Assembly (NCBI GenBank): GCA_020832545.1
Contig: JAFIEK010000022.1
Location: 1-63,924 of the forward strand
Source: Pararhodobacter sp.
Lineage (GTDB): Bacteria; Pseudomonadota; Alphaproteobacteria; Rhodobacterales; Rhodobacteraceae
Direction of reading: 5' to 3'
DNA length: 63,924 nucleotides
The notes beneath the pieces are model-generated. The model made no database searches, was not told the origin of the DNA, and saw nothing but the letters and a program-made list of their open reading frames with translations. Both the position numbers and the translations under genes were made by a program. Shown one piece after another: positions 52,194 to 57,677 of this stretch. Each line of letters opens with the position of its first letter. Within the stretch, counting starts at the first letter, position 1.

Positions 52194-52988
52194 TCACCCC
52201 GCCAATGCCGCGACCGCCGCACGAAGACGGGCTGCACTGGGTCCCTGTGACGCGACGGCGCGTGCCGACGACACCACCAGCCGCTCGCGCACCTCTGGTG
52301 GCAAGGCGTCAAGATCCTCCATCCGCCCTCCCTGCGCGCCGATACCGGGAACGAGAAAGCGCGCGTCAGGCATGATCTGCGCGGCGCGGCGCAGGTCAAC
52401 CGGATCGGTTGCGCCAATTACGGCACCGGGGAATCCGGGGGCGTAGTCTGCGCCCATCCCGGCGATCCCCTCTGCCACATGCTGCCAGAGCGGGGGCGCG
52501 CCGTGGCCCTGCACCGCAGCACCCTCAGGGTTGGAAGAGCGCGTGACGACAAAGACATAGGCACCCGCCGCAAAAGCGCGGTCAAGCAGCGGGCGTAACG
52601 CATCCAGCCCCAGATACGGCACAGCCGTGACCGCATCAACTTGCAGCGGAGCGTCGGGGCCAATCCAGGCCTGTGCATAGGCGTCCATCGTTGGCCCGAT
52701 GTCGGCGCGCTTGGCGTCAGCGATCACGGTTAGGCCCGCTTCACGCGCTTCGCCGATCAGGGTCTCCAGCACGGCGTATCCCGCAGCCCCGAAGCGCTCG
52801 AAATATGCGACTTGCGGCTTGACGACCGGGCATGCACCACCTGCCGCCGCAAGCAGCGCGCGCCCGAACGCAAGCGCACCTTCGGGTGCGTCAGGCAGGC
52901 CCCACGCGGCTAAATCTGCGGCGGAAGGGTCGATGCCAAGGCAGGCGATGGGGCGGCCTGGATGGCGGGGGTGTGGATTGAATGGCAA
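52194..52988 (-). CDS. pyrF: Orotidine 5'-phosphate decarboxylase (type 2)
   Basis: A 264-residue enzyme that makes UMP from OMP. The type 2 (long) form signature is VIADAKRADIGPTMDAYAQ, with the catalytic Lys/Asp set; GIDPSAAD near the N-terminus and FLVPGIGAQGGRMEDLDAL near the C-terminus are also typical. Full length. It lies downstream of the nrdJ region on the same strand with about 280 bp between the original nrdJ end and its start; not an obvious operon. Confidence 0.95.
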   Translation of the reverse strand: MPFNPHPRHPGRPIACLGIDPSAADLAAWGLPDAPEGALAFGRALLAAAGGACPVVKPQVAYFERFGAAGYAVLETLIGEAREAGLTVIADAKRADIGPTMDAYAQAWIGPDAPLQVDAVTAVPYLGLDALRPLLDRAFAAGAYVFVVTRSSNPEGAAVQGHGAPPLWQHVAEGIAGMGADYAPGFPGAVIGATDPVDLRRAAQIMPDARFLVPGIGAQGGRMEDLDALPPEVRERLVVSSARAVASQGPSAARLRAAVAALAG

Positions 52989-53268
52989 GGGCGACCTCCA
53001 GGCAAGGGAATGGGTATGCTTCTGCCTATCATGACCCTGACACCGCGGGTAAGGTTATGGTCCGCTGCCTTGCATCGCCGAAACCCGCTTACCGAGGTCC
53101 GGCCCCAAGCTGCCGGTCGCCCCGCGCTATGTGGTGCACCACGCACCAACCTTCCGCCATTCATGCGTGCCTGCCCTGCCCCCCGCAATGCGGGGAGCTG
53201 TCTTCATTATGCAGGCACAGAACATGGCCAGACGCGCAAGATCTGCTGCGGCCGAGGGCCGGATCCTC
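52989..53268. other. Intergenic region between pyrF and the nrdJ-end duplicate, with one hairpin
   Basis: No gene is recognised. CCCCGC-AAT-GCGGGG (53181-53195) is a perfect 6-bp GC hairpin about 75 bp after the first nrdJ-end copy and could be the original nrdJ terminator. The pyrF promoter should lie here. A TGA in frame with the duplicated nrdJ codons is at 53267-53269. Confidence 0.45.
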
Positions 53269-53322
53269 AGCTACACCCGCTCGTCCCGCCGCAGGTGTTG
53301 CACTTCATGCAGGTGCCGTTGC
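53269..53322 (-). repeat. Duplicate of the nrdJ 3' end (putative left attachment site)
   Basis: 54 bp identical to 54014-54067 except one base (53291 G versus 54036 A, a synonymous Cys codon). Read on the minus strand it encodes [17 protein letters not shown] and then a TGA (53269-53267), i.e. a complete nrdJ C-terminus with its own stop. Sequence identity stops abruptly on both sides. This is best explained as the original nrdJ end displaced by an insertion. Confidence 0.85.
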
Positions 53323-53389
53323 TGCGGCGGTCGTGCTTATCGCCCAGCAATAAATTAGCGGCTATAATGAGCAACAAACTAACGACACC

Positions 53390-53998
53390 CTAGAACACTA
53401 CTCGCTCGTGTTTCGGCCTTGGTCGCGCCAATTCGCGCTTAAAGACATCAAGCCGAACCATTCTCTGAGCCTTTTTCACATAACGAACATCAGTAAAAGC
53501 TCGGTGGGCTAATTGAATCGGATCCATCGAATCGTTCAGCAATTCAACTCCGCATTGGAGGAATACCGCGGCGTAATTTGCTTCCAGTTCCTCTAGAGTC
53601 GGCGGAATGTTGGACATGCCATTTGGCCCTGAGAACAACTGAAAGTTTTTCGTGATTGCGCCTCTAGCATGATGATTGAGTGCCAAATGGCCGGCTTCAT
53701 GCGCAAGAATAAAGTTGGATAGTTTGCAGCCACGCTTTGCATTTTCCATCAGCCTTTCATCCACAGTAAGCGTAACCCGGTCGGCAAGAGCAATCACCCC
53801 TGCTTTCCGTTTAAAGTCCTGAGTTTCTTTGGATCTGTAGGCTTTAATTTTCCAACGGCCTTCCTCGTCACACAAATCTTCCCAGTACTCGTCCATACGA
53901 AAAAAGTTCATGTCGGCGCAATAACTGCGCCGACACCCAACCATCTCTTCGAATACCTCAACAGCTCTGCGGGTAGTAAGAGTTTGATCTTTCTGCAT
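53390..53998 (-). CDS. ImmA/IrrE family metallo-endopeptidase
   Basis: A 202-residue zinc peptidase-like protein. The HExxH motif is in ILAHEAGHLALNHHA (about residues 99-113), and a downstream acidic helix EELEANYAAVFLQCG supplies the likely third ligand, as in ImmA/IrrE. There is no helix-turn-helix domain and no signal peptide. ImmA proteins cleave repressors of mobile elements; stand-alone members also occur in toxin-antitoxin-like pairs. Start ATG 53998 has AGGAGC at good spacing; it begins 13 bp after the regenerated nrdJ stop, so it is probably expressed from the nrdJ transcript. AT-richer than neighbours. Confidence 0.82.
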   Translation of the reverse strand: MQKDQTLTTRRAVEVFEEMVGCRRSYCADMNFFRMDEYWEDLCDEEGRWKIKAYRSKETQDFKRKAGVIALADRVTLTVDERLMENAKRGCKLSNFILAHEAGHLALNHHARGAITKNFQLFSGPNGMSNIPPTLEELEANYAAVFLQCGVELLNDSMDPIQLAHRAFTDVRYVKKAQRMVRLDVFKRELARPRPKHERVVF

Positions 53999-54011
53999 CT
54001 GCCCGCTCCTG

Positions 54012-57000
54012 TTAGCTACACCCGCTCGTCCCGCCACAGGTGTTGCACTTCATGCAGGTGCCGTTGCGCACCAGCGTGTAGTTGCCGCATTCGCCGCAGG
54101 GGTCGCCCTCATAGCCTTGCATCCGGGCCTTTGTGCGCGGGTCGATTGTGGCGAGAGCCACGGTCTCGGATGAGGTTTGCGCGCGCATGGCCACCGCCGT
54201 TTCGCCGCTGGCCATCAGCGCCGTGGCATCGAATGACCGGGTGGTGTTGCCGCCTTGCAGCACCACCAGTTCCTGCGGCAGACGCTTGCGCAGATAGCCG
54301 GTAGAGCTGATCTGGCGCAGCACTTCCAGCCCGCGTGAGGCCGCGTCATCGCTCAGATCCGAGACATTTGACTTGCCTTCACCCTCGCCGCCGCCCAGAT
54401 CGTCGAACGCAGCGCCCGTCGGTTTGACATGGGCCAGATCGGTGCGGTCCAGATAGCTGACGGCTAGTTCGCGGAAGATGTAATCGAGGATAGAAGTGGC
54501 GTTCTTGATGCTGTCATTGCCCTGCACCATGCCCGCCGGTTCAAACCGGGTGAAAGTGAAGGCATCGACAAACTCTTCCAGCGGCACGCCGTATTGCAGA
54601 CCCACCGACACGGCGATGGCAAAGTTGTTCATCATCGCCCGGAAGCCCGCACCTTCCTTGTGCATGTCGATGAAGATCTCGCCCAGCTTGCCGTCCTGAT
54701 ACTCGCCCGTGCGCAGATAGACCTTGTGGCCGCCCACAACCGCTTTCTGGGTATAGCCCTTGCGGCGCTCGGGCAGTTTTTCGCGATTGCTGCGCACGAT
54801 TTCCTTGATGATCACCTTCTCGATGATCTTCTCGGCCAGCACAGCAGCTTTCTCCTGATTGCTGCCGGTGGCCATGATCTCTTCGGCTTCCTCGTCATCC
54901 TCGACCAGTGCCGCCGCCAGCGGCTGGCTGAGCTTAGAGCCGTCGCGATAAAGCGCGTTGGCCTTGATCCCCAGCGACCAGCTCAGCTCATAGGCCGCCA
55001 GTGTCTCTTCGATGGTGGCGACATTGGGCATGTTGATGGTCTTGGAGATTGCGCCCGAAATGAAGCTCTGCGCCGCCGCCATCATGTGGATGTGGCTGTC
55101 CACCGACAAGAAGCGCTTGCCGGTCTTGCCGCAGGGGTTGGCGCAGTCGAAGACCGAATAATGCTCAGGCTTCAGATGCGGGGCACCTTCCAGCGTCATG
55201 GTACCGCAGACATGGTCATTCGCGGCGTCGATCTGCGCTTTGGAAAAGCCCAGATGGCGCAGCAGATCAAAGCCCGCATCATTCAGCTTGTCGACTGGTA
55301 TGCCCAGCGTCTCGCGGCAGAAGGTCTCGCCCAGTGTCCATTGATTGAACACGAAGCGGATGTCGAAAGCCGACGGCAGCGCGGCCTCGACCTTGGCAAT
55401 TTCCTCGGGGCCAAAACCATGCCCGATCAACGCGGTGTGGTTGATGTCAGGGCAATTGCCCAGCGAGCCATGACCCTCGGCGAAGGCGGTGATCTCGGCG
55501 ATCTGTGCCTGCGTGTAGCCCATCTTGGTCAGTGCGGCGGGCACCGACTGGTTGATGATCTTGAAATAGCCGCCGCCTGCCAGCTTCTTGAATTTCACCA
55601 GCGCGAAATCAGGCTCAATGCCGGTTGTGTCGCAATCCATGACCAGCCCGATGGTGCCGGTAGGGGCGATCACGGTGGCCTGCGCGTTGCGATAGCCGTG
55701 GGCCTCACCCAGTTCCAGCGCCTCGTCCCAGGCGGCACGGGCCAGCTCAACCAGCCGGGTATCCGGGCAATGCGCGGCGTCAAGCGCCACGGGTGCCACG
55801 TTCACCGCTTCATAATCGGCCAGCCCATGCGCGGCGCGGCGGTGGTTGCGGATCACGCGCAGCATGTGGTCGCGGTTTTTGGCAAAGCCCGGGAACGCAC
55901 CCAGCCCTGCGGCCATTTCAGCCGAAGTGGCATAGGACACGCCGGTCATCAGCGCAGTCAGCGCGCCACAGAGCGCGCGGCCCTCGGGGCTGTCATAGCC
56001 CAGCCCCATGTTCATCAGCAGGCCGCCGATATTGGCATAGCCCAGCCCCAGCGTGCGGAACTCATAGCTGCGCTGCGCGATCTCCTTCGACGGGAACTGC
56101 GCCATCATCACGCTGATTTCCAGTGTCACGGTCCAAAGGCGGGTGGCGTGGATATAGGCCTCGGCATCAAACGCGCCGTCAATGTGGAATTTCAGCAAGT
56201 TCATCGAGGCCAGGTTGCAGGCCGTATCATCGAGGAACATGTATTCCGAGCACGGGTTAGAGCCGCGGATCGCCCCATCCGCCGGGCAGGTGTGCCAGGC
56301 ATTGACCGTATCATGAAACTGGATGCCGGGGTCGGCGCAGGCCCATGCGGCGTGGCCTACCTGCTCCCACAACTCGCGTGCCTTGATGGTCTTGGCGACC
56401 TTGCCATCGGTGCGGCGCAGCAATTCCCAGTCGGCATCATCGCGCACGGCCTGCAAAAAGGCATCGGTCACGCGCACCGAGTTGTTGGAATTCTGGCCCG
56501 AGACAGTGACATAGGCTTCCGAGTCCCAGTCGGTGTCATAGGTGGGAAACTCGATCGAGGTATAGCCCTGACGCGCGTATTGCAGGATGCGGTTGGTGTA
56601 AGTATCAGGGATCATGGCTTTCTTGGCCGACCGGATCGCAGCTTTGAGGGCCGGGTTCTTGGCCGGGTCCACCGCATCTTCGCTGGTGCCGTAGCATTCG
56701 CGGATCGCGGTGAAAATCTCGTTGAGGCGCAGCTCATGCGCTTTTGAGCCCGCGACGAGGCTGGCCACTTTCTGCTCCTCGATCACCTTCCAGTTGATGA
56801 ACGCCTCAATATCGGGGTGATCCATGTCGCAGATCACCATCTTGGCCGCGCGCCGCGTGGTGCCGCCTGACTTGATCGCACCCGCCGCACGGTCGCCGAT
56901 CTTCAGAAAGCCCATCAGGCCTGATGATTTGCCGCCGCCCGAAAGCCGTTCACCCTCGCCCCTGAGCGAGCTGAAGTTGGTGCCGGTGCCTGAGCCGTAT

Positions 57001-57677
57001 TTGAACAACCGCGCCTCACGCACCCACAGGTCCATGATACCGCCCTCGTTCACCAGATCATCGCTGACCGACTGGATGAAACAGGCATGCGGCTGGGGGT
57101 GCTCATAGGCCGATTTTGATTTCACCAGCTTGTGGGTGAAAGGATCGACATAGAAGTGCCCCTGCCCCGGGCCATCAATGCCATAGGCCCAGTGCAGGCC
57201 GGTGTTGAACCATTGCGGGCTGTTGGGCGCGGCCATCTGGGCGGCCAGCATGAAGCGCATTTCATCAAAATAGGCGCGCGCGTCGGCCTCTGCGGTGAAG
57301 TAGCCGCCCTTCCAACCCCAATAGGCCCAGGCCCCTGCCAGCCGGTCAAACACCTGCCGCGCCGAAGTTTCGCCGACGAATCGTTCCTCGGCCGGCAGCT
57401 CGGCCAGCGCCTTGTCATCGGGGACCGAGCGCCAGAGGAATTCGGGAACACCCTTCTCGGTCACTTTCTTCAGCCGGGCCGGAACACCCGCCTTGCGGAA
57501 ATATTTCTGGGCAATCACATCCGAGGCGACCTGGCTCCAGCCCTGCGGAACCTCGACACTGTCATTGCGAAAGACCACGGTGCCGTCCGGGTTGCGGATC
57601 TCTGACACCAGTGTGGTGAACGCCAGTGCTGCATAGGCGTCCTGCCCGTCCCTGGTGAATTTGCGCTCGATCTTCAT
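54012..57677 (-). CDS. nrdJ: Vitamin B12-dependent (class II) ribonucleotide reductase
   Basis: A 1,221-residue adenosylcobalamin-dependent enzyme that reduces ribonucleotides to deoxyribonucleotides. The N-terminal region ([18 protein letters not shown]) is followed by the catalytic barrel; [18 protein letters not shown] carries the conserved N-x-C-x-E active-site residues, and [22 protein letters not shown] is typical. The C-terminus has a zinc/redox cysteine cluster ([23 protein letters not shown]). The start MKIERKF was chosen because upstream residues are unlike the family. The last 17 codons are repeated at 53269-53322, showing an insertion at the gene end; the stop is now TAA. Confidence 0.95.

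Follow-up and report, generated by a model that had tools for sequence, protein, structure and literature searches.

An ImmA/IrrE-like peptidase gene behind a probably renewed nrdJ end resembles a mobile gene cassette of a little-known kind

The stretch of DNA analysed here, hereinafter the window, comprises 63,924 nucleotides of contig JAFIEK010000022.1 from Pararhodobacter sp. (GenBank assembly GCA_020832545.1; Rhodobacteraceae), and our subject is the 3′ end of its nrdJ gene, which codes for a B12-dependent ribonucleotide reductase (NCBIfam NF005736, 2224.8 bits against a cut-off of 1737). This gene end is present twice, with a single gene for an ImmA/IrrE-like peptidase (hereinafter immA) between the copies. 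Since other bacteria have related insertions at this position too, the insert has the appearance of a mobile gene cassette of a kind that is little known. The locus consists of the following features:

54012..57677, minus strand: nrdJ, class II (B12-dependent) ribonucleotide reductase, 1221 amino acids (aa) (NCBIfam NF005736, Pfam, translation)
54014..54067, minus strand: nrdJ 3′ end now used by the gene, inner copy (repeat search, sequence)
53390..53998, minus strand: immA-like gene, type A, 202 aa, HExxH peptidase (open reading frame, alignment, predicted fold, PADLOC)
53267..53322, minus strand: second copy of the nrdJ 3′ end, outer and displaced, closed by a separate TGA stop at 53267-53269 (repeat search, sequence)
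53267..53377, minus strand: possible mini-ORF with a TTG start, 36 aa, in frame through the displaced tail (sequence only)
53323..54067, minus strand: inserted unit of 745 bp, whose edges may slide by up to 54 bp inside the repeat (repeats; polarity by analogy)

A repeat search of the window located the last 54 bp of nrdJ at 53269-53322 and again at 54014-54067, spaced by 745 bp. As a first-pass annotation made from this DNA alone had stated, the two copies (98% identical, 53/54) differ by one synonymous change (TGT/TGC) and have their own stops, TAA in the inner copy (54012-54014) and TGA in the outer (53267-53269). Across 169 flanks a reversed-tail control never scored above 13, as against 51 for the outer tail of the window, and chance is therefore excluded. 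The only immA-like open reading frame (ORF) between the copies (53390-53998, minus strand, 202 aa) opens with an ATG 16 bases past the first base of the nrdJ stop, with a Shine-Dalgarno-like AGGAG present, and the GC content of the insert is 0.47-0.51 in 300-base windows versus approximately 0.58-0.70 within 2 kb around it; thus, the annotation's description of a less GC-rich insert with a single ImmA/IrrE-like gene right behind the nrdJ stop also holds. Besides the displaced tail, we found in the insert no second gene, no helix-turn-helix (HTH) or ImmR-like repressor gene, and no genes of integrative and conjugative elements (ICEs). The frame of the displaced tail is open from the immA stop onward, with TTG as its only start.

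This arrangement is not a local oddity, because ImmA-like genes stand directly behind nrdJ in 10 of 157 Rhodobacteraceae flanks. These flanks (mostly 1.5-3 kb) come from the 352 genomes that match the tail pattern in a sample of about one genome per genus (n=394). Four of the ten are of type A (G000, the genome of the window, G294, G378, and G388), five of type B (G212, G054, G260, G122, and G022), and one of type C (G403); all of types B and C pass the cut-off of the Pfam M78 family, of which the window's genome has three genes in total in its 4.37 Mb. The cassette immA mostly starts 13-17 bases past the first base of the nrdJ stop, and that of G294 has no in-frame ATG near this stop. Eight of the 394 genomes match the tail pattern twice, and five of these matches are real pairs on the same contig (G000, 745 bp apart; G054, 664; G094, 477; G378, 798; G403, 1062), with no same-contig pair in the whole sample exceeding 1062 bp. 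Outer tails were recovered in 7 of 169 flanks, with scores of 26-111 (control at most 13). The displaced tail also follows unrelated small genes: in the window's own genus the nrdJ end was found in 17 of 18 genomes and a second copy in two, namely G000 and G014, of which the latter has an unrelated 114-aa gene between its tails, while in G094 a short ORF lying farther from the nrdJ stop is a candidate insert. Eight further flanks have another short ORF starting at most 35 bases from the nrdJ stop, likewise candidate inserts. An alignment of six small inserted proteins showed no convincing common family, with only L119 and L218 reaching 31% identity. A local tandem duplication or an assembly artefact in the window's genome alone is hardly credible in this light: such artefacts do occur, as in G049 (a gap of Ns) and G478 (a contig overlap), which we dropped before counting together with G127 and G321 (each with a pair of distinct nrdJ genes located on different contigs), but tandem tails with different genes are found in many genera, several on contigs of at least hundreds of kilobases.

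An alignment-based scan of genome contigs, which covered positions away from nrdJ for type A only and not for types B and C, retrieved 16 type A loci, all from Rhodobacterales by their record titles (the family placement of their genera is one that we presume); some overlap with the genomes of the family survey (L213=G384, L220=G388, L221=G378). Thirteen of the 16 lie directly behind nrdJ. The remaining three (L210:5989-6609, L213:6001-6594, and L219:5776-6591; L213 by sequence only) adjoin uvrB tail to tail, making uvrB, another gene of DNA metabolism, a second fixed address for the type A ImmA. Seven of the 13 loci behind nrdJ keep an outer tail of 26 to 123 bp (L206, L207, L208, L212, L214, L218, and L221). 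Other genomes with immA between nrdJ-end repeats, for which the first-pass annotation had proposed a search, thus exist; it had also named absence of the outer repeat from most relatives as counting against it, and with seven loci keeping the repeat and six lacking it this objection applies in part. In L218, nrdJ and immA are followed by the displaced tail and then by a gene for a 99-aa protein; this second insert again begins right behind the displaced tail, and the two serial inserts are a case of accretion. By sequence comparison, the relationships of ImmA and NrdJ disagree, which speaks for transfer, while leaving some congruence: the nearest neighbor of the ImmA is also that of the NrdJ in only 4 of 13 loci (L208 left out), although ImmA identities of 0.33-0.65 limit this comparison.

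Empty sites establish which of the two tails is native in the genus of G378, where the tail is present in 12 of 13 genomes, two occupied and ten empty. In each of the two occupied genomes, the 120-bp sequence following the outer tail matches 10/10 empty congeners above all of 100 shuffles, and that following the inner tail matches 0/10. As all the empty sites continue with the outer flank and none with the inner, the outer tail is native in this genus and the tail plus immA are inserted. When nine loci were compared with 31 other empty flanks, the number matching the outer flank was 25 for L207, 20 for L212, seven for L208, two for G403, one for G094, and zero for each of the window, G014, G054, and L218. 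With the inner flank, all nine loci gave 0/31. For the four loci whose outer flank matched no empty one, polarity is by analogy; in the window, too, the outer tail would be the native one, as in loci with empty sites in congeners. The annotation's insertion that renews the nrdJ end and places its gene in an operon-like position is accordingly backed by the empty sites in the genus of G378 and by the start spacing, and the empty sites that it hoped for in relatives exist for other occupied genomes, though none could be shown for the window itself.

A scan of the class (385 genomes, 158 with the tail) recovered tandem tails beyond G000 and the artefactual G478 only in G689, a member of a distant genus that, from its tail sequence, we take to be Methylobacterium-like. 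Four of 59 genomes of this genus have tandem tails (G689, G805, G843, and G852), and all four inserts encode ImmA-like proteins, that of G805 being frameshifted; a fifth genome, G844, has an ImmA-like insert without a second tail. The four intact proteins pass the M78 cut-off (E-values 1.9e-6 to 1.2e-11). We read 27 flanks from the 59 genomes, with occupancy biased by the choice of L263 and L265 for their two tails: a foreign-looking ‘LGF’ linker precedes the nrdJ tail in six, five of which have ImmA, and an ‘LPF’ linker in 21, none of which has it (two with less than 350 bp of flank). The GC content at third codon positions (GC3) was compared between the five ImmA genomes and six empty ones around a codon block of nrdJ, the ALK block. 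In the 60 bases before this block it is 0.70-0.95 and 0.80-1.00, respectively; in the first 60 bases after it the contrast is weaker (0.25-0.75 vs 0.70-0.95), and at 60-120 bases after it the values are 0.30-0.50 vs 0.75-0.90. Because GC3 drops after the block in the ImmA genomes, it is most likely that in this genus immA arrived with a replacement for the nrdJ end itself. The intergenic sequence is not alignable here (outer flank 0-2/19, inner 0-1/19). A clean insertion with a 6-bp overlap, considered for G689, was rejected: compared with the empty L266, the native sequence resumes about four codons further on.

The retained outer tail measures 35-123 bp in Rhodobacteraceae (26 bp in one decayed case) and, as read off translations by eye, approximately 95 bp in three genomes and 190 bp in one (G689) of the second genus. 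As these lengths vary, the right edge does not appear to be one point, and the 54-bp tail as the fixed attachment site that the first-pass annotation had made of it finds no support here, though the left edge close to a single codon block in the second genus leans the other way. Inspection of the inserts between two tails (one or two ORFs each) revealed no recombinase, and no larger autonomous relative was found at the site among 394 family, 385 class, and 59 genus genomes, in which the tail pairs stay within 1062 bp; this search is blind to islands whose outer tail has decayed or been lost. The annotation's shrunken tyrosine-recombinase island thus finds no backing in the inserts, and the larger islands with an integrase that it had proposed to look for at the same site did not turn up among the family genomes. 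A shrunken phage or ICE island was likewise set aside, with no type A ImmA among the matches in IMG/VR, phage, and plasmid records, and no tRNA in the window.

These observations lead us to favor, with modest confidence, recombinase-less one-gene cassettes that enter the 3′ end of nrdJ through nrdJ-derived flanks. A horizontally moving one-gene cassette would recurrently enter this gene end, bringing a fresh nrdJ end and an ImmA/IrrE (CapP)-like gene just behind its stop, and the original tail would stay as an orphan behind the cassette. With its gene starting at that position, the peptidase would be made together with the ribonucleotide reductase. Entry would most likely be by recombination upon uptake of DNA from another strain, with the nrdJ end as the left flank and the second tail as the right. 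Four points speak for this route, namely that nrdJ is the usual target, that no recombinase was seen, that the right edge varies, and that the outer tail usually has its closest counterpart in the inner tail of the same locus, which ranks first of 200 tails in 9 of 11 cases. A different route, which we hold to be unlikely though deserving of attention, is that of a non-autonomous site-specific islet, i.e., a cis-mobilizable element (CIME), with the nrdJ 3′ end as the attachment site and a tyrosine or serine recombinase encoded elsewhere, as at ssrA and tRNA genes. Regeneration of the gene end and flanking direct repeats, both expected of an integrative element at the 3′ end of a gene, are present, the repeats end at the stop, and inserts accrete; a further point in its favor is that the left edges in the second genus lie close to a single codon block. 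Such an islet has against it the lack of a recombinase in the inserts read (integrases elsewhere in these genomes were not searched), the lack of a larger island with both tails on one contig among the family genomes, and varying right edges, which precede the end of the stop by 35-123 bp, or by approximately 190 bp in G689.

The orphan tail itself behaves in part like a coding module. In 9 of 12 Rhodobacteraceae loci (L127, where no cassette ORF was identified, was left out) it lies in the frame that would permit translation to restart at the stop of the cassette gene: an ATG or GTG overlaps this stop in six (L007, L069, L207, L212, L218, and L221), L206 has an ATG 14 bases on, and L068 and L208 have only CTG; the window is not among the nine. 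In the second genus, the ImmA of G843 is fused in frame to the displaced tail, and the tail frame of G805 also runs back into its broken immA. The ImmA proteins of G852, G844, and G689 end in a ribbon of their own matching a hidden Markov model (HMM) of 123 NrdJ tails (1.1e-8, 6.3e-6, and 1.2e-4 against a database of one; the G689 match is marginal); with these included, the C-termini of four ImmA proteins of this genus match the NrdJ-tail HMM at 3.8e-19 to 1.2e-4, the best of 1600 shuffles being 5.2e-4. As it is often kept translatable, coupled, or fused to the peptidase, the orphan tail is probably also a zinc-ribbon partner of the peptidase. Another reading is a selected three-part unit of NrdJ, a tail-guided peptidase, and an NrdJ-tail mini-protein acting as a decoy, antidote, or adaptor, in which the repeat is kept for the sake of the tail peptide and does not reflect the way the DNA came in. 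We regard this as very doubtful. Besides the coupled and fused tails, it would account for the extent of homology in the outer tails, which runs to or into the stop codon in 12 of 13 and stops short of it in L218, and for the tail persisting in L214 and L221, whose ImmA proteins are just 58% identical; against it are the six type A loci without an outer tail and the tails behind unrelated small genes in G014 and G094. The codon differences of the tail pairs (24 synonymous and five nonsynonymous in 13 loci) do not separate an attachment site from a coding module, because synonymous change is expected anyway of a displaced native tail. Gene conversion, too, could keep the copies alike, a further point against the three-part unit.

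Several observations weigh against cassettes that travel by nrdJ-derived flanks and leave a functional tail behind. The left edge in the second genus falls within about 60 bases of the one codon block in five of five ImmA genomes; this near-constancy fits a site-specific process better, as homologous recombination predicts variable left edges. No clear GC3 step was seen in 23 occupied nrdJ genes of Rhodobacteraceae. Sequence alignable with that behind nrdJ in the window, and hence an empty site for the window itself, was found in 0/11 congeners and 0/31 others. A Mantel test detected weak congruence between ImmA and NrdJ (r 0.32, p 0.045). The tails of G094, G403, L208, and L212 show no codon difference, for which gene conversion or a long target duplication could account. 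As for the tail's function, the excess of the coupling frame (calculated by hand) has P of about 0.004 if the loci are taken as independent and about 0.04 once related ones are merged, in 8 of 12 loci the two other frames, too, offer starts open into the tail, no tail-like ribbon was detected in the ImmA proteins tested (type A, one; type B, two; type C, one), and immA is broken in two loci (a nonsense change in L208 and a frameshift in G805).

By its sequence, the window peptidase is at best a divergent ImmA/IrrE protein. Its Pfam matches to M78 (E=0.089) and M48 (E=0.0029) are both under the cut-off, NCBIfam returned no match, and PADLOC names it capP at E=0.0041. None of four type A proteins tested (the window's and three relatives, each alone) reaches the M78 gathering score, which is passed by 5/5 of type B, 1/1 of type C, and 4/4 of the second genus; the PADLOC capP match is strong for one type B protein and for the type C protein. 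The histidines and glutamate of the HExxH motif (H100, E101, and H104) are invariant across 16 sequences. An AlphaFold model of the window peptidase (predicted local distance difference test 86.6, predicted template-modeling score 0.85) has CapP (7t5t) as its best Foldseek match in the PDB (probability 1.00, E=3.5e-3, template-modeling score 0.48 by query length), although no PDB match fell under an E-value of 0.001, and a profile search of PDB sequences recovered no related peptidase. CapP, of the CapP/CapH pair of cyclic-oligonucleotide-based antiphage signaling systems (CBASS), and PprI/IrrE share with it the HExxH motif; it differs in sitting behind nrdJ, in having no HTH repressor gene in the insert, and in its M78 score below the cut-off. 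Both CapP and PprI are activated by single-stranded DNA (ssDNA; PMC10904395), and by analogy the nrdJ-linked peptidase is probably switched on in the same way, with NrdJ itself or a repressor as candidate targets. A more elaborate version, which we rate as quite unlikely, makes the insert an ‘end-swap’ module: it would replace the C-terminal end of NrdJ and bring an ssDNA-activated peptidase carrying, or co-translated with, the same zinc tail. This tail would anchor the peptidase to NrdJ or be a decoy, and the synthesis of deoxynucleoside triphosphates (dNTPs) would thereby be switched by DNA damage or phage replication; the second tail would then be a homology arm allowing spread without a recombinase.

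The closest described arrangement that we read of is that of the ssrA-specific islands of Dehalococcoides (PMC3146451), with a 20-bp repeat and an inferred insertion point, of which 16 have an integration module (serine recombinase) and 15 lack one, the latter being called possible cis-mobilizable elements. In common with the nrdJ cassettes, they target the 3′ end of a conserved gene, have direct repeats of it, accrete in tandem, and include members that lack an integration module. The nrdJ cassettes differ in that they are single genes of 0.4-1.1 kb whose right edge varies, that their target codes for a protein, and that the inserts read revealed no recombinase. There are two further parallels. 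Integron cassettes are likewise single genes in one orientation behind an outside promoter that accrete at one site, but the repeat of the nrdJ cassettes is coding sequence of the host gene. The ImmA of ICEBs1 is of the same peptidase family in a broad sense, but the window insert has neither ICE genes nor an ImmR-like gene. Our literature searches found no paper joining nrdJ and ImmA, and nothing among the matches listed describes an insertion of this kind at the nrdJ end. The cassettes would offer single genes a way to reach one fixed address across genera, without an obvious recombinase, via a spare end of a core metabolic gene. They tie a damage-activated peptidase family physically, and perhaps functionally, to an enzyme of DNA-precursor synthesis, giving a testable link between the sensing of damage or infection and the supply of dNTPs.

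We also recorded several other features in and around these sites. The displaced tails are intact in two loci with a broken immA, L208:6001-6606 (Roseovarius pacificus, early stop) and L263 (G805, frameshift). A contig classed as viral in IMG/VR (L085:1-1911, the portion examined of 31303 bases) starts inside an nrdJ tail and continues with a 45-aa ORF. In L133 (G052), nrdJ is followed by a 74-aa ORF that has KGTSGCS, the final NrdJ residues, at its end and is perhaps a remnant of a displaced tail. In G003, of the window's genus, a TniQ-domain ORF (Pfam) behind nrdJ is followed by GajA and GajB of the Gabija system (L057:4942-10761; PADLOC E-values 1e-217 and 1e-184), with no second nrdJ tail found. 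In the window, pyrF (52194-52988, TIGR02127) lies beyond the outer tail. In 55 of 90 Rhodobacteraceae loci (two from one genome included), nrdJ is followed at a distance of 46-558 bp by a conserved RNA-like element, with no regular-expression match in the nrdJ flank of the window and no Rfam match at the gathering threshold or at E-values up to 0.5. An alignment of L027:1370-1449 with 23 further loci shows a hairpin closed by CAGGC/GCCTG, with compensatory changes at 3 of 13 pairs, one of them in 11 of the 24 sequences. The cassettes stand between nrdJ and this element.

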